Source: Vulcanimicrobiota bacterium (GTDB lineage: Bacteria; Vulcanimicrobiota; JAJTBE01). Taken from it: a stretch of DNA of 64,000 bases. The position numbers and the translations under genes were made by a program. The notes beneath the pieces were generated by a model. That model ran no database searches. It saw only the letters and a list, made by a program, of their open reading frames with translations, and had not been told where the DNA came from. The stretch spans positions 1 to 64,000 of the forward strand of contig JAIORV010000080.1 in assembly GCA_021107945.1 (NCBI GenBank), given 5' to 3'. The stretch's first letter is position 1. The number at the start of each line of letters is the position of its first letter. Below are positions 6,728-27,797 of the stretch, piece after piece.

Positions 6728-6838
6728 ACGTAGCGCGGGTTTTTAAACCCGCCAATATATCACATTTCAATACGTAGCGCGAGTTTTTAAACCCGATAAT
6801 ATCGCATTTCAATACGTAGCGCGGGTTTTTAAACCCGC
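6728..6838 (+). repeat. Three tandem GTAG-hairpin REP-like units
   Basis: Three copies of ACGTAGCGCGGGTTTTTAAA(CCCGC), 42 bases apart, with near-identical linkers. The middle copy carries one stem change. Each is GTAG plus a perfect palindrome. Related copies lie at 11846-11927, 35335-35357 and 41540-41562. Confidence 0.75.
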
Positions 6839-7150: not shown

Positions 7151-7159
7151 TATCAATGG

Positions 7160-7203
7160 TTTTTCTCCGGTTTTTCTCCGGTTTTTCTCCGGTTTTTCTC
7201 CGG
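7160..7203 (+). repeat. Four perfect tandem copies of an 11-mer
   Basis: TTTTTCTCCGG repeated four times head to tail (7160-7170, 7171-7181, 7182-7192, 7193-7203) within the dispersed repeat. Such perfect short repeats can vary in copy number. Confidence 0.9.
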
Positions 7204-7231
7204 TTATCCTCAGCGAACTCTACGGTGAAAA

Positions 7232-7395
7232 AACACTTGTTCGATATAGGAAGCTATACCGGGGGACAAGGTAGGAATTGCGAAAGCCACCGGAAGAAGA
7301 TATTGGGAAAGCTGAATTCGGGAAAACCGAACGTACGGTTTGATGAGGGGGAGCTGGAGATAGAGGACTGCCACTATACTAGCTCTCAACTCTAC
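7232..7395 (+). mobile_element. Group II intron relic: domains V and VI and 3' end
   Basis: Bases 7308-7341 fold as a 34-nt group II intron domain V. AAAGCTG (with the catalytic AGC triad) pairs with the distal TACGGTTT; the inner helix ATTCGG/CCGAA has a GAAA-type loop, and a CG bulge lies on the 3' side. Domain VI follows, with GGGAGCT (7348-7354) pairing with AGCTCTC (7381-7387). The sequence ends in the usual AACTCTAC (7388-7395). The preceding GGGGGACAAGG and GAAAGCCACCGGAAG text resembles the end of intron domain IV. No reverse transcriptase or 5' domains are present, so this is a truncated relic. Confidence 0.75.
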
Positions 7396-7641
7396 CCATT
7401 TTCGATAGCGTCTATTTTTTACAGGTAACGAAATTTCGTTAAAAAATGAGAGGAGAAATTCTATGCAAGCAGAATAACTCGATTAAGTGCTGAGTCCTTT
7501 ATAGAACCTTGATTCTGAGAGTTTAGAATTATTTCTTCAATATTCTCGCCAAACCCTCTCAATTACAGGAAAGAAAGCCACATGTAATCATAGAAAACTA
7601 TCCCCATTTTTCCATATTCGACAAATAATAGGTGGTTAAAT

Positions 7642-10347
7642 ATGAAAAAGCAAATAAAGATCATACTTGATCCCGAAGTACCAGATCCTCAAAAGGGAGA
7701 TTTTTTTGAAGATTTGCTTCGCCGTATTTTTGAGACCCAAAGGTATGATATTACACAACGGGTTAATTTTGCTGGAATGGAAATTGATTTAATCGCCAAA
7801 CATAAGGATAGAGCAGAAACCGCTTATATAGAGTGTAAGGCAAGCGAGAGCCTTAGGGCTGTCGATATAAAGAAATTTTATTTTAATGTAGGACATCAGG
7901 AAGCAGATTATGGATACTTCATATCAACCACAGAATTTAAACATCAGGTAGCTGGTTTAATTGAAGAAATGAAAGGGAAAGATAAATATTCAAATCTATC
8001 TTTCTGGAAGCCTGATAAAATATTTGAGCTTCTTGAAAGTGCAAAAATGATAACTCCATTAGATACCAGCAACATAGAACATACCATCACTAAAATCATT
8101 CTCTCGTACACATATTTTGGAACTTTTTATATATTGATTTTAATGAAAAATACAATCCCCACTCAATTTTGTGTCTATCATGCTAATAAAGCCTCTCTAA
8201 TGCAAGATAATGATAAAATCGAAAAACTAAAGAGTGCTATACCGGAAATTAAAGATCTGAATTTTCTCCCCATCCCGTCAGCGGTTAAAGAAACAACAGA
8301 GGAGAAATTTCGTGAGACAGTTGCTGAAGTTCAAGAGAGTGAACATTGGTATGATTATCTTCCCGCTTCAATGGAACATTTCATTGGTCGGAAGGATTTA
8401 AAAACAAATTTACTTGATTTCATTGATCTAGTAAGCTCAAAGAAAACGTCTCGCAGGGTATTTTATATTCATGGAAAGTCTGGATGGGGCAAGAGTTCTT
8501 TAATAACTGATTTGAGAGGACTTAGTAAAAACAAGCATTATCGTAAGCGCTATTTTGTCCTCGCGGTAGATGCCCGGAGTGCCTCGTCTAGTAACTTTGT
8601 GGCATTGGCATTTAAAAAACTTGTTGAAAAGGCAAAAACGGCCAATTTTGTTGGCATGCCTCTTTTTGATCCCAAATTTGATATCACCTCAAGCTTTGAC
8701 ATATTGGGTTCCGAATCGGTGCATCGATTGCTTAAGGACTTAGAAGGTCGAAATAGAACTTTAATCTTAATATTTGACCAATTTGAAGATGTTTTTAGAA
8801 AAAAGGGTCTCTTCGAAGCATTTTATCGGTTTTTACATGATGTCGATGAGGTTAAATCTAATCTCATCCTAGGGTTTTCATGGAAATCTGAAATAAATAT
8901 TCCAATCGACCATGAAGCCTATCATCTATGGCAACAAGCAAAGAATTTCGTTCTTGATATTTCAGTGCGAGAATTTGATTCATCTGAAATAAACGGAGTT
9001 ATCAAACAATTAGAAAAATCTATTGCTAAACCAATAGGTTTGGATCTTAAAAGACGTTTGGTTGAAAGTTCTCAAGGATTCCCTTGGTTAATCAAAAAAT
9101 TGTGTATTCATACTTTTAAACAAATAAAAGCCGGAAAAACAATTGAAAACTTGGTTGAACAAGATTTAAACTGTGAATCTTTGTTTAAAGATGACTTGGA
9201 AGGATTGTCTCCTGAAGAGGTTACAGCACTAAACTATATTGCAAAATGTTCTTTCGAAGGTAATTTCTTTGACGCAACCGAAGTGGATGAAATAATTGAT
9301 GAGCCTGTCATAACTGAACTAATTAATAAACGTCTCGTTGTAAAATCAGGTACAAAGTATAACGTATATTGGGATATTTTTAGAGACTATTTAGTAACTA
9401 AAGAAGTTCCTCCAATCGGTGAGAGTTATATCCTTCGGCAGCATGTAAATGCTTGCTTTAATGTATATAAGTTATTTAAGGATCAAGAGAAATTTAGTTT
9501 GAACAAACTTAAGAAATTACACCCAAGGCACCCTGGAATAAGGACACTTGATAATAACCTGCGTGAACTGAGAAGCGTGGGATTAATACGGAAAGTAGGC
9601 GACTGCTTCCAGATCAGTCAGTCGGGGATATCCGCAACTGAAGATGGTTTTAGAAAGTATATGTCTAAAAAATTTGAGAGGTATACTCCTTATTTAAAAT
9701 TAAGTAGTTTAGAAAAGAAAGAAATCGGTATTCCTGAAGTAGTAGATACTTTAAAGGACATTTTTAGGGGGACTTCACCCAGAAAAAAAACATGGAATAC
9801 TTATGCGAAAAACCTTATCAGTTGGTTTCAATTTACAAACTTAGATTTTCAAGATAGATTAATAGGATTTGAAGGAGGAAGGTATGTCGGAACTGGCAGA
9901 ATAATTGATAATCGAGAGACCTTTACTCCTCAAAAACGTCCCTATAATGATATTGATGTTTTTCGCAACCTCTTAGATCAGCCAAAAATTGATAACTTTA
10001 ATAAGTTACACTCCTCCTTCTATGACTTAAAGTCGATTGGCTTAATTACATATTCTGATAATAAAGTAAACCTGACAGAAAAGGGTAAACTTATTTTAAA
10101 AAAAGTTGGCAAAAAGGAATTTGAAAAATCAATTGCAATTGAAGCCCTAAAAACCAAAAAAATAAAACAAGCCGCAAAGTATTTCTTTGAACATCCAAAA
10201 TGCTCGAGAAAAAAACTTGGAGAGGCATTATCAGATTTAACTTCTAATATAAAATCGGAAACATATAAAAAAAGAGTAAATAATATACTTTACGCTTGGG
10301 CGAAGTTTATTTACGAACATTCAGATAATACAAATTGGATTCATTAA
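7642..10347 (+). CDS. Nuclease-STAND ATPase fusion, probable anti-phage protein
   Basis: 901 residues. Residues about 10-130 form a PD-(D/E)xK restriction-endonuclease-like domain: FFEDLLRRIF (E23), GMEIDLIA (D49), YIECKA (E64, K66). A STAND-type P-loop ATPase follows: FIGR at 247-250, Walker A GKSGWGKS at 278-285, Walker B LILIFDQFED at 374-383 (the DQFE signature of these ATPases). The C-terminal half (about 480-890) looks like repeated winged-helix/helical modules rather than TPRs. Avs-type and related defence proteins combine such nucleases and STAND ATPases, with a C-terminal sensor that triggers DNA degradation. The role here is inferred. The gene stands alone, is AT-rich compared with its neighbours, and sits beside a group II intron relic, which suggests horizontal acquisition. 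Start ATG 7642 follows TAGGTGG. Confidence 0.75.
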   Translation: MKKQIKIILDPEVPDPQKGDFFEDLLRRIFETQRYDITQRVNFAGMEIDLIAKHKDRAETAYIECKASESLRAVDIKKFYFNVGHQEADYGYFISTTEFKHQVAGLIEEMKGKDKYSNLSFWKPDKIFELLESAKMITPLDTSNIEHTITKIILSYTYFGTFYILILMKNTIPTQFCVYHANKASLMQDNDKIEKLKSAIPEIKDLNFLPIPSAVKETTEEKFRETVAEVQESEHWYDYLPASMEHFIGRKDLKTNLLDFIDLVSSKKTSRRVFYIHGKSGWGKSSLITDLRGLSKNKHYRKRYFVLAVDARSASSSNFVALAFKKLVEKAKTANFVGMPLFDPKFDITSSFDILGSESVHRLLKDLEGRNRTLILIFDQFEDVFRKKGLFEAFYRFLHDVDEVKSNLILGFSWKSEINIPIDHEAYHLWQQAKNFVLDISVREFDSSEINGVIKQLEKSIAKPIGLDLKRRLVESSQGFPWLIKKLCIHTFKQIKAGKTIENLVEQDLNCESLFKDDLEGLSPEEVTALNYIAKCSFEGNFFDATEVDEIIDEPVITELINKRLVVKSGTKYNVYWDIFRDYLVTKEVPPIGESYILRQHVNACFNVYKLFKDQEKFSLNKLKKLHPRHPGIRTLDNNLRELRSVGLIRKVGDCFQISQSGISATEDGFRKYMSKKFERYTPYLKLSSLEKKEIGIPEVVDTLKDIFRGTSPRKKTWNTYAKNLISWFQFTNLDFQDRLIGFEGGRYVGTGRIIDNRETFTPQKRPYNDIDVFRNLLDQPKIDNFNKLHSSFYDLKSIGLITYSDNKVNLTEKGKLILKKVGKKEFEKSIAIEALKTKKIKQAAKYFFEHPKCSRKKLGEALSDLTSNIKSETYKKRVNNILYAWAKFIYEHSDNTNWIH

Positions 10348-11845: not shown

Positions 11846-11927
11846 GCGGGTTTAAAAACCCGCGCTACGTGATTTTTAAGAAATTATAAATGTCATCTTA
11901 ATTGGCGGGTTTAAAAACCCGCGCTAC
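11846..11927 (-). repeat. Two tandem GTAG-hairpin REP-like units
   Basis: Two copies of the GCGGGTTTAAAAACCCGC palindrome followed by GCTAC (11846-11868 and 11905-11927), 59 bases apart, each preceded by ATGTCATCTTAA. They are inverted relative to those at 6728-6838 and fill most of this 205-base gap. Confidence 0.75.
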
Positions 11928-14124: not shown

Positions 14125-14907
14125 TTATTCCGATTCTTCTCCAAGAACAAATGCATAGTCTGATTTATAAAATCCTGTTTTACCCAGGATAGATGCGCCG
14201 TTTTCATAAAGTGTTATCCTGTAATCGGCTTCGAGAATACCAGGCTTTCCCACAACATGAATCTCTGTATCGCTTTCCATTATAAGGCTATAGTTAACAA
14301 AACCGTCCTTCGTGATTCCTTTGACCGTGATCCTGTCTTCGCCGGTAAATATTCCATAATCAAGGAAGACGTCTCCCTGGTGTCCCTTGACTTTAATTCC
14401 CTCGTCACCGTAGATTATATTGACTTCGATTTTCTCTTCCCCCACTTCTCCACGAACCGAAACCACATCATCCCCCAGCATCGTAATGGTTACCTCACAT
14501 TTTTTGCCTGCAACATTCCCGGCTATTTTTGTGAATGTTCCCATGGATGTGAGTCTCATATCCATCTGATCTTTTCCGTTGGTGCCCTTGATCCAGTATC
14601 CCCCCTCTATGGGATATATGTAATAGGATCCGTATAAACCGGCATAAGAGCCCCGGACATGTACCTGTGCTTCCTTCAGCGATGAAATTACTTCCGCCTC
14701 GTTCGATCCTGTCTTTCCCTTGAGGGTAAATGTTTTACAATAATCGACCGACAGGGCGACCGCGCGATCCTCCCCAAAGAGCATTACGATATCCCTTGAT
14801 CCTGCCATAACCGCCGGTATCGGGAGACCCAAAAAATCAACCAGGTTAATTATTATATCAGGATTTATCGTCAGATTGGGACCCACAATTGAAGGTTTTA
14901 TTTCCAT
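14125..14907 (-). CDS. Beta-repeat protein of unknown function upstream of tex
   Basis: 260 residues. After an N-terminal stretch of about 60 residues the protein consists of roughly 22-residue repeats. Each repeat has the form I-x-V-x-G-x-x-G then alternating residues and a Y or V, seen as VVSVRGEVGEEKIEV, GIKVKGHQGDVFLDY, RITVKGITKDGFVNY, EIHVVGKPGILEADY and ASILGKTGFYKSDY. The periodicity suggests a regular beta-sheet stack or solenoid. No signal peptide or membrane segment, so it is probably cytoplasmic. Start ATG 14907 follows AAGGGGCGG. Adjacency to tex suggests co-expression, not necessarily a shared job. No family recognised. Confidence 0.65.
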   Translation of the reverse strand: MEIKPSIVGPNLTINPDIIINLVDFLGLPIPAVMAGSRDIVMLFGEDRAVALSVDYCKTFTLKGKTGSNEAEVISSLKEAQVHVRGSYAGLYGSYYIYPIEGGYWIKGTNGKDQMDMRLTSMGTFTKIAGNVAGKKCEVTITMLGDDVVSVRGEVGEEKIEVNIIYGDEGIKVKGHQGDVFLDYGIFTGEDRITVKGITKDGFVNYSLIMESDTEIHVVGKPGILEADYRITLYENGASILGKTGFYKSDYAFVLGEESE

Positions 14908-14950
14908 ATTACCGCCCCTTTGTTAATCCGGTTATTTGAAGTCTTTAATT

Positions 14951-15030
14951 AACCACAGAGGACACAGAGTTTTTGATTTTAAATTCTTCGTGAACTTCGT
15001 GTCTTCCCTGAAACAAGTTCAGGGCAGGCT
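14951..15030. repeat. CACAGAG-type repeat and CCCTGAAAC inverted repeat
   Basis: AACCACAGAGGACACAGAGT (14951-14970), an inverted inner segment TTCGTGAACTTCGTGTC, and CCCTGAAACAAGTTCAGGG (about 15006-15024), a short palindrome related to copies near 11768-11815 and 31466-31504. Confidence 0.55.
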
Positions 15031-15085
15031 GTGGCGAGCACATGTTTTTTAGATGGTCTCACCTCTCACCTCTCGTACCCCGTCT

Positions 15086-15934
15086 CTACTTTAGACAGGC
15101 TGATATTAAATCCCTCCCCTCATTCTCCATGTGTGCTATCAGCCCTGTTAACACGCTTTTACGGGAGGGAGTGAATAATATTCGTCTTTCAAGGTTGTGA
15201 ATAATAAGGTTCTTTAATTCGCCGGGATCCAGGCTTATGGGGTTTTTGCTCCTGTAATTTCGTATGAAGTCACAGGCAATTTCCGGACTTCTGCCGGGGA
15301 GTTTCTTCCTGAGAAGCATCAGTGACGTAAGTATATCAGAAATATCAATTATCTCATTTCCCCGAATCGCCTCTTCAAAATCTATGCCGAAGACTTCACC
15401 TGTCTCACCATGTAAGAGAAAATTCGGCATCATAACATCCCCCTTGAGCATGGTTCCCTGTTTTCCAGGGATTTTAAACAGATTATGGAAGTCGGCCATC
15501 CACAATGCCAGCTTATCAACAGGGAGATTCACTGTTTCACCCTTTAAATCCCGGAATGATATCCCCGGAATGTATTCTGTGAAAAGAATATATCCAGGGC
15601 AGCTCTCAATCTCATCCAAATTTTCGTCGTCAAGATCAGCATCTGTCAGTCTGGAGAATACAACCCCGGGCTTGTCGGCTTCATTCCTTACCCGTATTAA
15701 CTCCATGGGAGCCGGCACATTCAATCCCGCCTTGTATGCTTTTTGCAGGATTCGCCATTCTCTCATTCCGTTTCCCCAGACGTAAAACTTTGCAATCACG
15801 CTGAAGTCCCTGTCCTGCCGCCTCAAATGAAACAAAGTAACCTGGTTCTTTTTACTGATAAAAAAGCGTGGGAAAACAATTTCGGTTCCTTCACCAAAAA
15901 CAAATTCAATTATTTTTTTCCAGAACTTTTCCAT
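15086..15934 (-). CDS. Kinase-fold protein (APH/Kdo kinase-like)
   Basis: 282 residues with the pattern of small bacterial protein-kinase-fold enzymes that phosphorylate antibiotics, sugars or LPS. Seen: candidate phosphate-binding lysine in FSVIAKFYVWG, the catalytic-loop-like LKGDVMMPNFLL (D and N in D-x4-N spacing) and the metal-binding GIDFEEA followed by DISDIL. The N-terminal lobe is short. The gene overlaps the upstream ECF-S-like gene by 29 bases, pointing to tight coupling with that membrane protein. Substrate cannot be named. A role in phosphorylating an imported small molecule is one possibility (inference). Confidence 0.6.
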   Translation of the reverse strand: MEKFWKKIIEFVFGEGTEIVFPRFFISKKNQVTLFHLRRQDRDFSVIAKFYVWGNGMREWRILQKAYKAGLNVPAPMELIRVRNEADKPGVVFSRLTDADLDDENLDEIESCPGYILFTEYIPGISFRDLKGETVNLPVDKLALWMADFHNLFKIPGKQGTMLKGDVMMPNFLLHGETGEVFGIDFEEAIRGNEIIDISDILTSLMLLRKKLPGRSPEIACDFIRNYRSKNPISLDPGELKNLIIHNLERRILFTPSRKSVLTGLIAHMENEGRDLISACLK

Positions 15935-16526
15935 TTTTATGGTTCTCCATAAATATTTCTACAAATTTAATAAGTTTCCACGCTAACATCCCAAAAATGA
16001 CAGCTACTAGTATATGATATACAATAAGCATCAAAAATATTGTAATTATCGAAAATTCTGCCCAGGGGAACAAACTTGTAAATCTTGCAAATGCCCTATG
16101 TATTGCATTGATCAACCCAATTCCTATGAAAAATGCATAAATTACAAGTGTGAGAACATACCCAAAGAGGTTTGTAATCACCGATGCAGTCATAATCGAC
16201 CAGAAGTGAAATTTCATTGTATTAAATATAATCTCAACAAGAGCTGCCTCAAGGAATATTGCAATAATTGCCAATATCTTGAAAGATCCTCCGAAGAACA
16301 GATTGATAATGACAGTCAGAAAACCCATTGAAATAACTGTTCCTCTTTTTGGGACAAACGCGTACCCCAGGGAATAGATAATAATATTAAACCCCACCAA
16401 AATCGATCCGGAAAGCGGGAATTTAATAATATGAAGATAATTGCCGAGGGTAAGCTCGATGGTAGCGTTGCAGGCTGCGAGAATTGCAATCACCGCAATT
16501 TCATAACTCCTGCCGCGTTTTCTCAT
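15906..16526 (-). CDS. ECF transporter S-component-like membrane protein
   Basis: 206 residues with about six hydrophobic membrane segments and a basic N-terminus (MRKRGRSYEIAVIAILAACN). The size, helix number and the AALVEIIFN/GFNIIIYSLGYAFVPKRG layout resemble substrate-binding S components of energy-coupling-factor vitamin transporters. The shared ATPase/EcfT module is not in this window, which is common for solitary S components. Start ATG 16526 has GGAGGAG upstream. It forms a two-gene unit with the kinase-like protein. Assignment is by architecture only, and a different small membrane protein family is possible. Confidence 0.5.
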   Translation of the reverse strand: MRKRGRSYEIAVIAILAACNATIELTLGNYLHIIKFPLSGSILVGFNIIIYSLGYAFVPKRGTVISMGFLTVIINLFFGGSFKILAIIAIFLEAALVEIIFNTMKFHFWSIMTASVITNLFGYVLTLVIYAFFIGIGLINAIHRAFARFTSLFPWAEFSIITIFLMLIVYHILVAVIFGMLAWKLIKFVEIFMENHKNGKVLEKNN

Positions 16527-16807
16527 TTTACTCCTCCACTACATGTTTTCCTATTTATAAATCTTATTTTGATTTCATACAGGGAAATTCCGGTCAACCA
16601 AAAAATTATAATTTATAATTATCAATTTGGCAAGAATGAAAAGTAAATAAATTTTGTTTCAATATCTTATTTTGTTCTTTAATGCTCACATGAAAATAAA
16701 ACGTCATCGTCCGGTCAGCCTGGAGGCAATTTTTTCCGGTGGTTTTGGGTAATACAGATGATGTCAAAATAAATTCATGGGAGTATAAAAATTAAGGAGG
16801 GAATACC

Positions 16808-18874
16808 ATGGGCACATCCGACAAGGAGATGTCTCCCTTTCCGATCATAAGAAAGCGGGACGGCCGACTGACGCGCTTTGATATAAATAAAATTTCGGAT
16901 GCTATCCATCAAGCATTCTACGCAATAGGAAATGAAAATCGAAGTCGATGTGACGAGCTTGCGACAATAGTAGTCAGAGAGCTTATCAACGCCGTCGAGG
17001 GTGGAGTGCCACATGTAGAGGAAATTCAGGACGCAGTGGAGCGTGTATTGATAAAAGAAAGTCACGAGAGAGCTGCCAAGGGATTCATTCTCTACCGCGC
17101 AAAAAGAAACAGCATAAGAGAAGGTAAATCTGAGTTAATGGACAGCGTTGAATCAATCCTGAGCGAAACGGGAAAGGAGACCAGATTCGGCTTCAACTCC
17201 ACGAGTGCGAAAATGATAAAAATAGCGGAAGCGGCAAGCAGAGCATTTTACCTTACAAGGGTGATCCCCAGCACTTATGCGGAAGCTCACAACAGGGGAG
17301 ATATTCATATCCACGATCTTGACTACTACAGCAAGACAATTCAATCACTCCAGATTCCGGTGGGGAGATTGTTTGAATCAGGATTTTCCTCGGGGTACGG
17401 TTATACAAGACCTCCCAGGCATATTTCCACAATAGGCTCATTACTGGCGATTATCATTCAGAGTTGTCAGAATGATATGCAGGGAGGGCAATCGATCCCC
17501 GAATTTGACAGACAGGTCGCCGGATATATTTCCCATCACGATAATATTAAGTATAGCAGGGAAGAATTATTGCAGACAATGCAGGGATTGGTATATAATC
17601 TTAATATGATCTATTCCCGTATCGGGGAGCAAGTTCCCCAGAGCACCATAAACCTGGGACTTGACACAAGCGCGGCGGGAAGAATGGTCACCGAAACTCT
17701 CCTGACCAATCTCGGACAGGGACTCGGCAGAGGCGAAACTCCTCTGTTCCCCTGGGTGGTTTTCCATATCAAAGATGGGGTCAACCTCAACGAGGGAGAT
17801 CCCAACAATGATTTACTCAAACTGGCCGTAAAAGTTGCCTGCAGAAGGATGAATCCCACTTTTGCCTTTGATGATGCTCCCATAAACCAGGGTGTTTCTA
17901 TGGCATACTGGGGAGACGCTTCCAGGACGGCGACAGACATGCCATTTAGTTGGGACGACGATGGCAATAAGCCTGAATCGATTTCAGGCTGGGGTAATAT
18001 CGCCCAGGTTACGATCAACCTGCCAAGGGTTGCGTTCAAGGTTGCTCACAGGCGTAAAGATTTTCAGGTAGAGTCGTTTCGAAACGAATTATGTCGGGTG
18101 ATAGAATTATGCGCACGGCAGTTGAAGCATCGAAGGGATGTAATTTCCGGGTTAAAAGTCAATGAACTTCCTTTTGTTATGGGAGAAAAAATCTATTCCG
18201 GATCCGGCGAGCTTCAATGGGATGACTCAATATCAGCCGCCCTTGAACATGGCATACTTTCAATAGGCTTCGTTGGACTTGCCGAGGCTGTTATGATTCT
18301 TTACGGGGATAGCTATGCAAGGGATGAGAAACTCCTTGACTTCGCCCTGGAAACATTGGATTTCATGCAAGAAGAAATTCAGAAAATCTCAAGGGAGTTC
18401 GAATCGAATCTTGTTCTCACGGCCTCCTCCTCGGGTTATGCGGCACATCGATTTCCCATTCTTGACCGGGGAGAATTCAGCACCGTGCCGATGGTAAACG
18501 ATAAAAAATACTATACTCAGGGATTCGGTCTTATGACGGATGAAAAAATTCCCTGGGAAAAGAAGCTTGAAATAGAGGGAAAATTTCACAACCGGGTTTC
18601 CGGGGGACATTTTACCTTCCTGGAATCTTCCAGGATGCCCGATGAGGAGACTTATCTCCGGGTATTGAAAAAAATGAGAGAATCGGGAATTGCATATGGT
18701 GGAATTTCTTTTCCTCTCACCGAGTCTCTTGACAACGGGAGTATTGTAACAGATCCACAGAAAGTCAAGGGACGTTTAAGGACAATCCGCAGAGCGGCGG
18801 GGTTGCTTCTCCCCCTGGAGAGAATTAACAAAGGGCTCAGGGAAGAATTGGGTCGAAGGAAGTTTGATTTATAA
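16808..18874 (+). CDS. NrdD-family glycyl radical protein lacking key cysteines
   Basis: 688 residues aligning over the full length with anaerobic class III ribonucleotide reductase. An ATP-cone domain lies at 13-105 (IIRKRDGRLTRFDI), then HIHDLDY at 167-173, PRHIST at 203-208, INLPRVA at 403-409 and the C-terminal glycyl-radical region RRAAGLLLPLERINKG (candidate G665). The sites expected to hold cysteines do not. The position of E. coli C79 is S180, the GCRS/GCRT cysteine is replaced in WGDASRT (S372), and the CxxC...CPxC zinc site before the glycine is SLDNG...TDPQ. Only five Cys exist (48, 220, 345, 429, 435). No nrdG activase is nearby. It is either a diverged enzyme with other chemistry or a pseudo-enzyme. 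Strong AGGAGG before ATG 16808. Confidence 0.8.
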   Translation: MGTSDKEMSPFPIIRKRDGRLTRFDINKISDAIHQAFYAIGNENRSRCDELATIVVRELINAVEGGVPHVEEIQDAVERVLIKESHERAAKGFILYRAKRNSIREGKSELMDSVESILSETGKETRFGFNSTSAKMIKIAEAASRAFYLTRVIPSTYAEAHNRGDIHIHDLDYYSKTIQSLQIPVGRLFESGFSSGYGYTRPPRHISTIGSLLAIIIQSCQNDMQGGQSIPEFDRQVAGYISHHDNIKYSREELLQTMQGLVYNLNMIYSRIGEQVPQSTINLGLDTSAAGRMVTETLLTNLGQGLGRGETPLFPWVVFHIKDGVNLNEGDPNNDLLKLAVKVACRRMNPTFAFDDAPINQGVSMAYWGDASRTATDMPFSWDDDGNKPESISGWGNIAQVTINLPRVAFKVAHRRKDFQVESFRNELCRVIELCARQLKHRRDVISGLKVNELPFVMGEKIYSGSGELQWDDSISAALEHGILSIGFVGLAEAVMILYGDSYARDEKLLDFALETLDFMQEEIQKISREFESNLVLTASSSGYAAHRFPILDRGEFSTVPMVNDKKYYTQGFGLMTDEKIPWEKKLEIEGKFHNRVSGGHFTFLESSRMPDEETYLRVLKKMRESGIAYGGISFPLTESLDNGSIVTDPQKVKGRLRTIRRAAGLLLPLERINKGLREELGRRKFDL

Positions 18875-20899: not shown

Positions 20900-21013
20900 T
20901 CGGCGGGAATAGTGGGGGCTATGGGTAAAAAGTGCGTGAGAATAATTACTTTTCAGGTAATTTACAGATTGCATTTTTTGTATTCTTGATATATAATTAA
21001 AGTGAGGACTAAG

Positions 21014-21319
21014 GTGCAAGTTGATTTCAGAAATGACCGCCTTGTGAAGCTTTATCAAAGCGGAAAATCCAGAATGTATCAAAAAAACATCATTAAAAAA
21101 TTCTTTATGAGAATCCAACAGTTAGAAGCTGCCAAAGATATCTACGATCTCTGGAAAACTCCTTCACTCAATTTTGAAAGAATGAAAGGCCACGAAAATC
21201 GATATTCCATTCGTGTCCAGGACAAATGGAGACTTGAGATGGAAATTGAATGGGAAAACAGCAAACAAAACACAGGCACGGTTCATATTATTGAGTTATC
21301 ATCTCATTACAGGAGCTAA
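21014..21319 (+). CDS. higB: HigB-type toxin (RelE superfamily)
   Basis: 101 residues matching the HigB/killer family, ribosome-dependent mRNA endonucleases. Seen: VDFRNDRLVKLYQSG at the start, LEAAKDIYDLWKTPSLNFERMKG in the middle and YSIRVQDKWRLEMEI, the core strand with conserved W and R, near the end. I chose the second in-frame GTG (21014), which has GTGAGGA five bases upstream and gives the family's usual N-terminus; GTG 21002 would add four residues. The toxin gene precedes the antitoxin, the typical higBA order, and the antitoxin starts one base after its stop. Confidence 0.9.
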   Translation: MQVDFRNDRLVKLYQSGKSRMYQKNIIKKFFMRIQQLEAAKDIYDLWKTPSLNFERMKGHENRYSIRVQDKWRLEMEIEWENSKQNTGTVHIIELSSHYRS

Positions 21320-21320
21320 A

Positions 21321-22448
21321 ATGATCACAAAATATAAGCCATTTCATAATGTTGCCACAGGAGACTTTATCAGGGAGGAAATGGAGATAAGAGGATGGAC
21401 GCAAAGAGACCTTTCCGCTGTCCTCGGTATTTCTGAAAAATCTATAAGTAAGCTGATCGGTAATAAACAAGCTGTTACAATAAAAACAGCTAGCTTGCTT
21501 GGTAAAGCTTTTGGACAATCACCTGATTACTGGCTGAATTTATATAATAACTATGCTTTACGCCTTTTGGAGGATTCCTGGGAAGAAAATCGTGCTGTCG
21601 AAACAAAAGCTTTGATTTATAATAATATGCCGATAGGTGAAATGTTCAAAAAAGGATGGATGGAGAAAACGCGCGATGCTGGTAAATTAGTGAAGGAAGT
21701 CCTAAAATTCTTCAACCGGAAAAAGTTGGATTTGTCCCTTTTTGACAATGCAAATCTCCCTGCGTTCAGGAAATCAAAAACTTACGAGAATTTTAGTCCC
21801 AATTACGCATTTACCTGGTTTCAAATGGCAAAGAATTGTGCAAAACATTACCACGTGGATGATTACAACCGAGATGCTCTGAGAGAAATAGCGAAGAACC
21901 TTCATGCATACACCGTTTCCAGAGATGGAGTTCAACTGTTTATCAGGCAGTTAACAGATGTCGGTGTGAAATTCTTTGTTTTGAGCCATCTTCATAAAAC
22001 CTATATTGACGGGGCATCGTTCTTTGATGGAAAGAATCCGGTTATTGTCTATACAGGAAGACACGACAGGATTGACAATTTCTGGTTTACGGTTGCACAT
22101 GAAATCGCCCACATACTAAAACACTTGAGAAACGAAAATGATTTCTTCATCGACGACACTGACAAAAGAAATGCTGAATTTCAAAACAAACAGGAAAAAG
22201 AAGCTGATGAATTTGCTTTAGAGACAATTAAAGAAAGGGAAATCATTAAATTCTGCACATCCTCCCGGTATAAAACCCATTCTTTAATTGCGAGGTGCGA
22301 GAGGGAATTGAAGATATGCAGTGGCATAATTGTCGGAGTTTTACAACATAGAAAAATGCTTTCGAGGAAGAATCTAAATAAATACAAATATCAAGCTTCA
22401 GAACTTTTACCGGAAAATTGTTTTGTGGAAAGACTTCTTTCTCTTTAA
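21321..22448 (+). CDS. higA: HigA antitoxin fused to ImmA/IrrE-like metallopeptidase domain
   Basis: 375 residues. Residues about 14-75 are an XRE-type helix-turn-helix (GWTQRDLSAVLGISEKSISK...LLGKAFGQSPDYWLNLY), typical of HigA. The long C-terminal part carries HEIAH at 260-264 in FTVAHEIAHILKH, with a downstream EADEFA glutamate, the zinc-peptidase signature of ImmA/IrrE (DUF955). HigA proteins are often about 100 residues; fused forms like this are known. The DNA-binding half should neutralise HigB and repress the operon, while the protease domain may cleave it or itself under stress (inference). ATG 21321 follows AGGAG at 21311-21315. Confidence 0.88.
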   Translation: MITKYKPFHNVATGDFIREEMEIRGWTQRDLSAVLGISEKSISKLIGNKQAVTIKTASLLGKAFGQSPDYWLNLYNNYALRLLEDSWEENRAVETKALIYNNMPIGEMFKKGWMEKTRDAGKLVKEVLKFFNRKKLDLSLFDNANLPAFRKSKTYENFSPNYAFTWFQMAKNCAKHYHVDDYNRDALREIAKNLHAYTVSRDGVQLFIRQLTDVGVKFFVLSHLHKTYIDGASFFDGKNPVIVYTGRHDRIDNFWFTVAHEIAHILKHLRNENDFFIDDTDKRNAEFQNKQEKEADEFALETIKEREIIKFCTSSRYKTHSLIARCERELKICSGIIVGVLQHRKMLSRKNLNKYKYQASELLPENCFVERLLSL

Positions 22449-24257: not shown

Positions 24258-24331
24258 AAACAGAAATTCCTTCGAGCATCTTCTAATTGAGGAGTCTGTG
24301 ATGGAAAAATATAAAAAAGGAGGAGATAATT

Positions 24332-24808
24332 ATGGGACAGATTTATCGCGTGGAAATCAAGAGAAACGTTGGAGACATTAATCGTTGTGGCATTCGATTG
24401 TCAGGGTTTACTTCAGAGGAAGATAGGATCATAAGAAACGGTATATTCAAAGATGATAATGACAGGAAAACATTGTCAAGAAAATATAACATCGGAGATA
24501 TTTCGAATCTATATCAGTTATTTAAGGAGAAAAGTTTTCTATGTAGTGACAAGTTTTTAGACTTAATAAGACCTCGATTTGATATGGAGAAAAGTTCCCT
24601 GCATACTGACAAGGTTTTAGGGTTAACAAAACTTCCTATTAAGAACTTCGAAAGTTGCTGTGAGATTTCAAGTTTGGATTTTACTTGGGAAGAGTTGCTC
24701 TATGTTTCAGGTTCCAGACCATCTATTTTAAAGCCAGGTGAATCGTTTCCCTATATGTGTATGGAGTCGAAACAAATAAAATCGGTTGAAGATACAGAAA
24801 TTGAGTGA
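24332..24808 (+). CDS. Small protein of unknown function next to UPF0489 gene
   Basis: 158 residues, ATG 24332 with a strong AAGGAGG. Two similar segments lie in the middle, EKSFLCSDKFLDLIRPRF and EKSSLHTDKVLGLTKLPI, indicating an internal duplication of about 20 residues. No signal peptide, membrane helix or known motif. It follows the arginase-like gene by 74 bases. It is long for a RiPP precursor but contains several arginines, so a substrate role for the neighbour can be asked about but not claimed. Confidence 0.5.
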   Translation: MGQIYRVEIKRNVGDINRCGIRLSGFTSEEDRIIRNGIFKDDNDRKTLSRKYNIGDISNLYQLFKEKSFLCSDKFLDLIRPRFDMEKSSLHTDKVLGLTKLPIKNFESCCEISSLDFTWEELLYVSGSRPSILKPGESFPYMCMESKQIKSVEDTEIE

Positions 24809-24901
24809 GAATTAAACAAGCATAACATAACAGGGCAGGGGTCTGAATAGTTTCCTACACAAATATCATAGAATTGATAATTGTCTAAAATGTTAACTTC
24901 A

Positions 24902-24995
24902 TTCGAAACTCTGCGCCCTCTGCGCTCTCTGCGTTGAAAGAATTCAATGGTTCTCTGCCTTGAAAATCTCCTGCGTCCTCTGTGGTGAATATCAA
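24902..24995 (-). repeat. CACAGAGG/GCAGAG dispersed repeat, two copies
   Basis: GCGCCCTCTGCGCTCTCTGC (about 24910-24929) and GCGTCCTCTGTGGTGAATAT (24973-24992) flank an inner segment. Most of the 200-base gap is this element. Confidence 0.6.
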
Positions 24996-25011
24996 CGCAA
25001 TTTCAGTTTGT

Positions 25012-25941
25012 TTATTCCTTCTCCATCAACTCGATAACGTTATCAAATATCTCCTTTATCACAAAGTTCAGTCGGAAAAAGGTGTATGATCCCACGAGGT
25101 ATCCCAGTACGAGGTCTTCCCTGAAAGTTTCGTCAATATTGTTAATGGCAAGGGAGGGTGTGCCGTCTTCTTTTCTGGTAAGAGCGATAATTGTTGTCAT
25201 AAGTTCCATCGACCTTATTAGACTTTGCATGTCCTCGCTAAAATTTTCATCCGGGTTTGGATATACCATTACATAATCCTTGAGAATACTGCCATGCGTT
25301 ATGAGGTTCTTCATTTTCTCTTTTATCATGTCAACTTTTTCAAAGATGGTTTTCCTGGAATTGAGCCTTCTCACCCAATGTTTGTCTCGAACGAGTTTTG
25401 AAAAAGTCTCTGAAAAACTTATGATAGCTTTCTCGCCGCTGGCGGCGAGCCCCAGGCAACAACTTGCAAGCAGCCTATAGAAATAACAACTTACCGCTTC
25501 ATTGAGATAATCCAGGATCAGCTCGGTATCTTTATTCATTTCAGGAAGCTCATTCCTGAGCGAATCCACAAGATTTGACGGGATTATAAGGAGCTTGCCG
25601 TATTTCTTCCATATTTCGAGTCCCTTTTCCGTGGGAACATATAAGTCCCAATGAAGAAGATCCTCTCCCGACAGGAGTCTTCTTTTAATAATACGGTCCA
25701 TGACAAGATCGTGTACCGCCTGCCATGTCAGGTCAATAAACTTGTCCCGGTAATTATTCTTTGTCTTTGCCGGGTTTTCACCGCCCTTGATATAATCGTA
25801 TTTCATAAGAGCGGATATAAGCCAGTTGTTGTAAAAATGGACAAGGGGTGTCGGCGGTTGTCCGTATTTTACCTTGTTATGATACTCCCTTACGATGAAT
25901 TCGAACAGGAAGTTCTTTACAATGTTTTTTGTTATCTTCAT
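25012..25941 (-). CDS. Helical protein of unknown function
   Basis: 309 residues, start ATG 25941 behind GAGGGGG. The N-terminal 120 residues contain segments that could form a winged helix (LTWQAVHDLVMDRIIKRRLL ... LYVPTEKGLEIWKKYG), in a pattern like transcription-regulator or primase helper domains. The rest is helical (YFYRLLASCCLGLAASGEKA) and ends in a hydrophobic but charged-flanked stretch. No signal peptide. No family recognised. Faces a repeat-filled gap on both sides, so probably a single-gene unit. Confidence 0.5.
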   Translation of the reverse strand: MKITKNIVKNFLFEFIVREYHNKVKYGQPPTPLVHFYNNWLISALMKYDYIKGGENPAKTKNNYRDKFIDLTWQAVHDLVMDRIIKRRLLSGEDLLHWDLYVPTEKGLEIWKKYGKLLIIPSNLVDSLRNELPEMNKDTELILDYLNEAVSCYFYRLLASCCLGLAASGEKAIISFSETFSKLVRDKHWVRRLNSRKTIFEKVDMIKEKMKNLITHGSILKDYVMVYPNPDENFSEDMQSLIRSMELMTTIIALTRKEDGTPSLAINNIDETFREDLVLGYLVGSYTFFRLNFVIKEIFDNVIELMEKE

Positions 25942-25985
25942 TCTCGGTCCCCCTCAAGCTATTTATAGTTATTAATGACATTATT

Positions 25986-26100
25986 TTCACCGCAAAGACC
26001 ACAAAGATTAATAATAATTTTATTTGCGTTCCTTATTTATTTGCGGTTTATTTTAAATTCCTCTTTATAGAATGACAAGCATTCCAGATGGCTGAATAAT
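25986..26100. repeat. CACCGCAAAG-type repeat plus 60-bp segment shared with 38036-38105
   Basis: TTCACCGCAAAGACCACAAA (about 25987) with an inverted TTATTTGCGGTTTA end at about 26036-26049, followed by AATTCCTCTTTATAGAATGACA...GGCTGAATAATTAC. The latter is nearly repeated at 38050-38100. Confidence 0.65.
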
Positions 26101-26135
26101 TACTTTGAAAGTTTGTTTTGCCATTTTTAAATGGC

Positions 26136-27797
26136 TTAATGTGCTCTATCCACATATTCCCCCCATTCATCCCTGAGGGCGTTGGATATTTCTCCCACTG
26201 TAGCGCCGTCTCTGACAGCGTCGATGAAAAGTGGCATGATGTTTTCATTGGTTCTTGATTTTTCCTTAATTTTGTCAAGGATTTGCGATATTTTCCCGTT
26301 ATCTCTCTTTTCCTTGAATGCTCTGAGCTTCTCAACCTGTTTGCGCTCCATATCGGGATCAATAGAGAGAAGGGCAACTTTCTCCTTTTCGTCAGTCGTA
26401 AATTTGTTGACACCAACGATTATTCTCTCATCTTTCTCCGCTGCGGTTTGCAGTTTATATGCGCTGTTGTGAATCTCCCTCTGGATATACCCCTCTTCTA
26501 TGGATTTGACCGCGCCTCCTCGCTTCTCAACTTCTTCCATTATTTCCATCGCTGCTTTCTCAAGATCATCCGTCATTTTTTCAACGAAATATGAGCCTGC
26601 GAGGGGATCGATTGTTTCTGTGACACCTGATTCGTAACCGATTATCTGTTGTGTGCGAAGAGCGACTGTTACCGCTTCCTCGGTGGGAAGGCAGAGGGCT
26701 TCATCATATGAATTCGTATGTAGAGACTGCGTTCCTCCAAGCACCGCCGCCAACGCTTGCATTGTCACCCTGACGACATTATTCAGAGGCTGTTGAGATG
26801 TCAGCGTTACTCCTCCTGTTTGCGTATGGAATCGGAGTTTGCATGATTTTATGCTTTTCGCACCGAATTCTTCCTTCATCATTCTTGCCCACATTCTCCT
26901 TACAGCGCGAAATTTCGCCACTTCTTCCAGGAGGTTGTTATGAGAAGCAAAAAAGAATGAGAGTCTCGGAGCGAATTCATCCACATTTAGTCCCCGTTCA
27001 AGTACTGATCTGACATATGCCCCGGCGTTTGATAATGTGAACGCAATTTCCTGTGCCGCCGAGCTGCCTGCCTCCCTTATATGATAACCGCTTATCGAGA
27101 TGGGATTCCAGCGGGGAATATATTTCGAGGTATATTCGATAAGGTCTCCCGTTAATCTCATACTGGGTGGCGCGGGATAGACATAATTTCCTCTGGCGCA
27201 GTATTCTTTGAGGATATCGTTTTGAACCGTGCCTTTGATTTTCTCCTTTGAGACGCCCTGATTCTCCGCAACAACGATATACATTGCCAGGAGTATGCAT
27301 GCTGTTGCGTTTATTGTCATTGACGTGCTGACCTTGTCGAGGGGAATCATATTAAAAAGCGTCTCCATGTCCTCGATGGAATCAATTGCAACGCCAACCC
27401 TGCCGACTTCGCCCAGGGATCGCTCATCATCGGAATCAAGCCCTAATTGCGTGGGCAGATCGAACGCCACCGAGAGTCCCGTCTGACCTTTCTCGAGGAG
27501 AAACAGGTATCTCTTGTTTGTAGCCTCGGCATCCGCCATTCCTGCATATTGTCTCATTGTCCAGAGTTTTCCCCTGTACATTGTGGGCTGAACTCCCCGC
27601 GTAAATGGATATTCACCGGGGAATCCGAGATTTTTCATGTAGTCGAATCCTTCAAGATCCTCTGGAGCATATATATAATCAACTTCAATATCAGATGTGG
27701 TTTTAACATCCGGTAGTCTTGGAGGAAATCGATTCGTCGCCTTTTTGAGTGTTGCATCTTTCCATGCTTGCTTTGATTCTTTTATTGTCGTATCCAA
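26136..27797 (-). CDS. Acyl-CoA mutase large subunit (methylmalonyl-CoA mutase type)
   Basis: 553 residues, the length of the substrate-binding large subunit of two-subunit B12-dependent acyl-CoA mutases. It rearranges methylmalonyl-CoA and succinyl-CoA (or an isomer such as isobutyryl/ethylmalonyl-CoA) by a radical mechanism. Seen: GFPGEYPFTRGVQPTMYRG, TMRQYAGMADAEATNKR, LEKGQTGLSVAFDLPTQLG, ISGYHIREAGSSAAQE and KLRFHTQTGGVTLTSQQP. There is no cobalamin-binding domain (DxHxxG), so a separate small subunit must exist outside the window; meaB/epimerase genes are also absent. The start is TTG 27797 with AGGAGGT upstream. Exact substrate is not decidable by eye. Confidence 0.93.
   Translation of the reverse strand: MDTTIKESKQAWKDATLKKATNRFPPRLPDVKTTSDIEVDYIYAPEDLEGFDYMKNLGFPGEYPFTRGVQPTMYRGKLWTMRQYAGMADAEATNKRYLFLLEKGQTGLSVAFDLPTQLGLDSDDERSLGEVGRVGVAIDSIEDMETLFNMIPLDKVSTSMTINATACILLAMYIVVAENQGVSKEKIKGTVQNDILKEYCARGNYVYPAPPSMRLTGDLIEYTSKYIPRWNPISISGYHIREAGSSAAQEIAFTLSNAGAYVRSVLERGLNVDEFAPRLSFFFASHNNLLEEVAKFRAVRRMWARMMKEEFGAKSIKSCKLRFHTQTGGVTLTSQQPLNNVVRVTMQALAAVLGGTQSLHTNSYDEALCLPTEEAVTVALRTQQIIGYESGVTETIDPLAGSYFVEKMTDDLEKAAMEIMEEVEKRGGAVKSIEEGYIQREIHNSAYKLQTAAEKDERIIVGVNKFTTDEKEKVALLSIDPDMERKQVEKLRAFKEKRDNGKISQILDKIKEKSRTNENIMPLFIDAVRDGATVGEISNALRDEWGEYVDRAH

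Follow-up and report, generated by a model that had tools for sequence, protein, structure and literature searches.

A single-gene Mrr nuclease-STAND protein with a duplicated winged-helix sensor: a probable NLR-like anti-phage receptor carried by mobile elements

Results

The window (the whole stretch of DNA analysed, 64,000 nt) contains, towards its left end, an intact ORF specifying a protein of 901 aa, here termed P0001. The coordinates of the gene, its predicted domains and nearby features are given in Table 1. The ORF is not a chance reading frame, since relatives, mostly full length, are encoded at no fewer than 80 loci in genomes of bacteria and archaea and on 17 viral contigs; a further source is 15 plasmid records. 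The gene is present in a single copy in its own genome, and a search of 97 other genomes of the host's phylum returned no relatives. Its GC content is 33.8%, compared with 42.9% for the remainder of the window, in agreement with the AT-richness reported in the initial annotation. The same annotation placed the gene in a mobile defence island, which does not hold for this locus: the neighbouring genes specify SfsA, an LpxB-like protein and Tex, all housekeeping functions, and the P0001 gene is an isolated insertion among them.

The group II intron relic and the repeat elements said to flank the gene were both recovered. Remnants of the intron occur in six copies in the genome, most of them partial, and therefore represent a dispersed relic, which has no functional link to the P0001 gene. 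Two of the six (window nt 7307–7395 and L118 nt 14743–14831) lie less than 250 bp from nuclease-STAND genes, but this may be chance because two further copies, on the same contig, are situated in gaps near ordinary genes. The second of these nuclease-STAND-like genes (contig C12, L118 nt 14936–17989, minus strand) codes for a protein of 1017 aa that matches nSTAND_NTPase5 (4.3e-12) and has an N-terminus that is Mrr-like by eye only. In its C-terminal half a 34-aa repeat (ARELTKQDKIDNIDKQVLCRCLDILRNEPEGKDL) recurs several times almost unchanged, which may mark a sensor that expanded recently, and a sequence search for a PDB relative of this protein found none. The near-palindromic dispersed repeat GTAGCGCGGGTTTTTAAACCCG has seven copies in the window (none expected by chance), at positions that include nt 6730–6837, 11847–11927, 35336 and 41541, and flanks the P0001 gene on either side, while an 11-bp tandem repeat, GGTTTTTCTCC, occupies nt 7158–7212 upstream of it. 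Elsewhere in the window (nt 21002–22448), a HigB-like toxin gene is followed by one for an HTH and IrrE-type (Peptidase_M78) protein, forming a toxin-antitoxin-like pair.

Table 1. Features of the P0001 gene and its upstream region (window coordinates)
Feature	Position (nt)	Strand	Basis
3' remnant of a group II intron (region of domain V), 5' of gene	7307..7395	+	Rfam RF00029, 36.1 bits (slightly below the gathering score of 40), E 1.5e-4
Ribosome-binding site AGGTGG, 6 bases 5' of ATG	7630..7635	+	sequence reading
Nuclease-STAND-winged-helix protein P0001, 901 aa	7642..10347	+	intact ORF
Mrr-type PD-(D/E)xK nuclease, residues 1-136, predicted catalytic D49, E64, K66	7642..8049	+	Pfam Mrr_cat, invariant triad, profile match to 1y88
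Small linker domain (three strands and a helix), residues 146-200	8077..8241	+	AF2 model secondary structure
STAND NTPase NBD and HD1, residues 230-515, Walker A 278-286, LIFDQFE 376-382	8329..9186	+	Pfam nSTAND1, VIA-align
STAND winged-helix domain (WHD), residues 516-592, family motif YWDIFRDYL	9187..9417	+	alignment, AF2 model, VIA-align
Sensor module R1, residues 601-735, winged helix and helical bundle, TWxxYAxxxxxW motif	9442..9846	+	model, profile comparison
Sensor module R2, residues 762-899, diverged R1 duplicate, AAA_assoc_C / WH_III-A-like	9925..10338	+	model, profile comparison, Pfam

The front half of P0001 is as first described, a PD-(D/E)xK nuclease joined to a STAND ATPase. Both Pfam matches exceed their thresholds: Mrr_cat at residues 19–111 (2.1e-9, 37.9 bits against a cut-off of 21) and nSTAND1 (PF20703) at residues 241–402 (7.4e-8, 32.9 bits against a gathering score of 27.1). 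The NACHT profile reached 12.5 bits, below its gathering score of 26.7. In an alignment of 79 full-length family members, the nuclease triad (D49, E64, K66), the GxGKSS (281–286) and DQFE (379–382) motifs, D578 and Y583 are invariant in all 79, from which it follows that constraint acts on the nuclease as well as on the ATPase. The AF2 model of P0001 has a mean pLDDT of 88.4, and VIA-align comparison of residues ~230–590 gave Z-scores of 18.2 for MalT, 17.8 for NLRC4, 17.5 for NOD2, 17.4 for NLRP3 and 15.7 for phSTAND (6mfv). The modelled core (residues 230–592) is a canonical STAND NTPase with the order NBD-HD1-WHD. Because residues 230–590 match structures of this order, the first winged helix (~520–590) is an ordinary STAND WHD and not, as in the first reading, one of the winged helices of the C-terminal sensing half.

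Since MalT leads the structural matches to the NTPase and wHTH modules are present, P0001 might be read as a MalT- or AfsR-like STAND transcription regulator, its winged helices controlling genes and its nuclease being a non-catalytic remnant. We regard this as very improbable, as the triad retained throughout the alignment argues for catalysis, the distribution of the family is scattered and mobile, and no conserved neighbour is available as a target of regulation.

The sensor proper comprises residues 600–899. Modelled separately, residues 588–901 (pLDDT 90.7) form two modules, each of the winged-helix/helical type. Profile-profile comparison of R1 with R2 gave a probability of 97.8% (E 6.6e-13, 121 columns), and all other segment pairs of P0001 scored 1.4 or less. 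The sensor therefore arose by tandem duplication of one unit, a winged helix with a helical bundle after it, and the two copies have diverged. Pfam searches of 77 family C-termini returned AAA_assoc_C in 18 (best 2.8e-14) together with assorted wHTH families; TPR was not among the 25 most-matched families listed for these C-termini, nor was there a Pfam TPR match in P0001. Winged helices in place of TPRs, the arrangement first suggested for the C-terminus, thus hold for the two-module sensor.

What the sensor recognises may be approached through its structural relatives. The best matches to the model were BrxA (Z 7.8, 134 residues aligned), Nt.BspD6I (7.7, 150), FokI (7.4, 138) and SspB (6.6, 141), values that are middling on the tool's own scale and borderline; below SspB came other winged helices (Z ≤6.4). 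The four leading matches are DNA-recognition parts of restriction or defence proteins, and at the level of sequence profiles the sensor matches wHTH regulators, 2d1h and Csa3 among them. In P0001 itself, R1 and R2 each carry a net charge of +12. Such features would suit an NTP-gated restriction-like enzyme, whose winged helices would directly bind DNA that is foreign or unmodified and whose Mrr nuclease would be permitted to act once STAND domains had assembled on DNA. Against it, Z-scores below 8 can reflect a common arrangement, Foldseek comparison of the sensor with PDB and viral models gave no match at E ≤ 0.001, the family-median charge is just +2 for R1 and +3 for R2 with few conserved basic positions, winged helices also bind proteins, and a methylase partner for self-protection is lacking. 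A search of the PDB with the single P0001 sequence returned nothing useful. The structural matches hint at DNA sensing, as a lead and not a result, and the restriction-like enzyme is a tentative possibility on the unlikely side; it is a sub-case of the anti-phage receptor discussed below, with DNA as the cue. That the duplicated module of the sensor serves DNA recognition in the manner of FokI and BrxA, making P0001 an NLR-like, STAND-gated nuclease that detects foreign DNA instead of phage protein, we consider rather doubtful. If the cue were indeed DNA, restriction and NLR immunity would be joined in one chain.

Relatives of P0001 are spread across about 15 bacterial and archaeal phyla, up to Lokiarchaeota, and full-length members are about 800–1040 aa. 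Proteins of a Bacteroidota branch (L018, L023, L024, L026) are 1023–1036 aa, about 120–140 residues longer. Phyla are intermixed in the family tree, where P0001 groups at 100 with proteins from Chloroflexi and Cloacimonadota, each 78% identical to it, and judging from these sequences the family appears to have been transferred between phyla. In 61 of 62 family loci the gene is AT-rich relative to its flanks (median 8.8 points). Among 24 genomes with long contigs, at least four have an integrase within 1.5 kb of the family copy (0.16 genes expected; P 2e-5, a generous value since two of these genomes come from Enterobacterales related to each other), and many chromosomal copies have no adjoining integrase. 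A homologue in a P2-like prophage adjoins portal and terminase genes (identified from their translations). No relative was detected in the 50,697 phage records of INPHARED. Plasmid matches from Enterobacter and Salmonella that lack the nuclease were considered as cases of effector swapping, an idea that they do not support: IS3 and IS110 insertions adjoin them and they look like disrupted copies.

Among 147 neighbours no Pfam family was counted more than five times, phage integrase being the most frequent. The protein therefore probably acts alone, which bears out the earlier remark that the gene has no companion. Defence genes occur only sporadically close by, and no type I methylase was found near the family gene in the 24 genomes tested for co-location. 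Homologues lie in prophages, on plasmids and in the P4 psu-int hotspot described below, so that the refuting case named in the initial annotation, homologues consistently outside defence islands, did not arise; the copy in the window and the methylase test, however, give no sign of such an island. The family is mobile-element cargo more than it is demonstrably enriched in defence islands. Since prophages, satellites and plasmids often carry it, the protein could also have a role in element maintenance, as an addiction or exclusion factor directed at competing elements, with defence against lytic phages incidental. This is improbable: there is no antitoxin or partner gene, the many chromosomal copies without an adjoining integrase do not fit, and the P4 slot harbours a store of anti-phage systems.

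The family is present in 54 of 5,426 complete E. coli genomes as one nearly identical form (≥99% identity) with the same domains as P0001 (Mrr_cat and STAND; nSTAND1 32.0 bits, above the gathering score). In both genomes examined a P4-like satellite carries it between psu and int, with no other cargo there, and the genes flanking the family copies on three IMG/VR contigs (L101, L102, L104) are equal in length to those of the E. coli P4 slot. In the same E. coli region, a RloB and AAA ATPase pair is found close to the P4 integrase (L107 nt 24295–26246). According to Rousset 2022 (PMC9122126), the psu-int slot serves as a reservoir for anti-phage systems, from which 18 systems plus P4 genes were cloned and seven were protective; STAND proteins with Mrr_cat nucleases are mentioned there, and the validated STAND member has a TIR effector and TPRs. 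The E. coli homologue is probably one of the Mrr_cat-STAND entries in Table S1B of that paper, the available main text of which does not report a phage test of it. The suggestion of a new subtype is fair in the sense of an unnamed variant, but Mrr_cat-STAND proteins of the P4 hotspot are already in print. No match to P0001 was seen in the available main texts of DefensePredictor, Vassallo 2022 and the Gifsy prophage paper, and within the literature searched (partial coverage, main texts) we found no paper naming or testing a family member and no phage-challenge result.

Discussion

P0001 is quite probably a single-gene, NLR-like anti-phage receptor with a nuclease effector, abortive infection being one outcome. 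Observations that count against the receptor are the housekeeping neighbours in the window, the sporadic nature of defence neighbours, and the zero counts for type I methylase and phage records. The working cycle of such a receptor can be drawn by analogy with Apaf-1, NLRs and Avs. By comparison with STAND relatives, resting P0001 would be a closed, ADP-bound monomer held by the WHD and the C-terminal sensor. Recognition of an infection cue by R1 and R2 would lead to exchange of ADP for ATP and oligomerisation of the STAND domain, and the oligomer would gather the Mrr nuclease domains and so switch on DNA cleavage. The target may be phage DNA or, in abortive infection, all DNA. The family is compact, has a sensor of two winged-helix modules and ranges from E. 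coli satellites to Lokiarchaeota; its small size and tractability make the cue accessible to direct testing.

The best-described nuclease-bearing NLR-like receptors of bacteria, the Avs proteins, sense phage proteins via long repeat solenoids. Avs4 (AVAST type IV) is the product of a single gene and has an N-terminal Mrr-like nuclease and a central STAND NTPase, features that it shares with P0001. However, Avs4, which recognises the phage portal protein, is much longer than the approximately 900 aa of P0001, and its sensor is a TPR-like solenoid whereas that of P0001 consists of two winged-helix modules. Searches of PADLOC (to E 10) and NCBIfam (to E 1), run with no Avs protein as positive control, gave no Avs match to P0001, and the family profile did not reach a solved Avs chain. 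An Avs chain was also absent from the 50 structural matches listed for the NTPase region, an absence that proves nothing. On the question of whether the C-terminal fold belongs to a named family, the sensor matched none of the Avs families that were testable.

Other known systems share parts of this arrangement. The bNACHT proteins have the same single-gene, NLR-like order of effector, STAND and sensor, but the P0001 NTPase scores as nSTAND1 and not as NACHT. As far as they are described in the available text, the STAND proteins of the P4 slot carry nuclease, TIR or SIR2 effectors, and the E. coli homologue, with its Mrr_cat and STAND domains, shares their slot. The winged-helix modules of BrxA, SspB and the recognition domains of FokI and N.BspD6I resemble R1 and R2 at the borderline scores given above; no sequence similarity to these proteins was found, and they lack a STAND domain. 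P0001 joins a front half resembling that of Avs4 to a compact sensor of another kind, and the family is apparently unnamed. Its layout is that of an animal or plant NLR, except that one end carries a predicted DNA-cutting enzyme and the other a duplicated winged-helix sensor.
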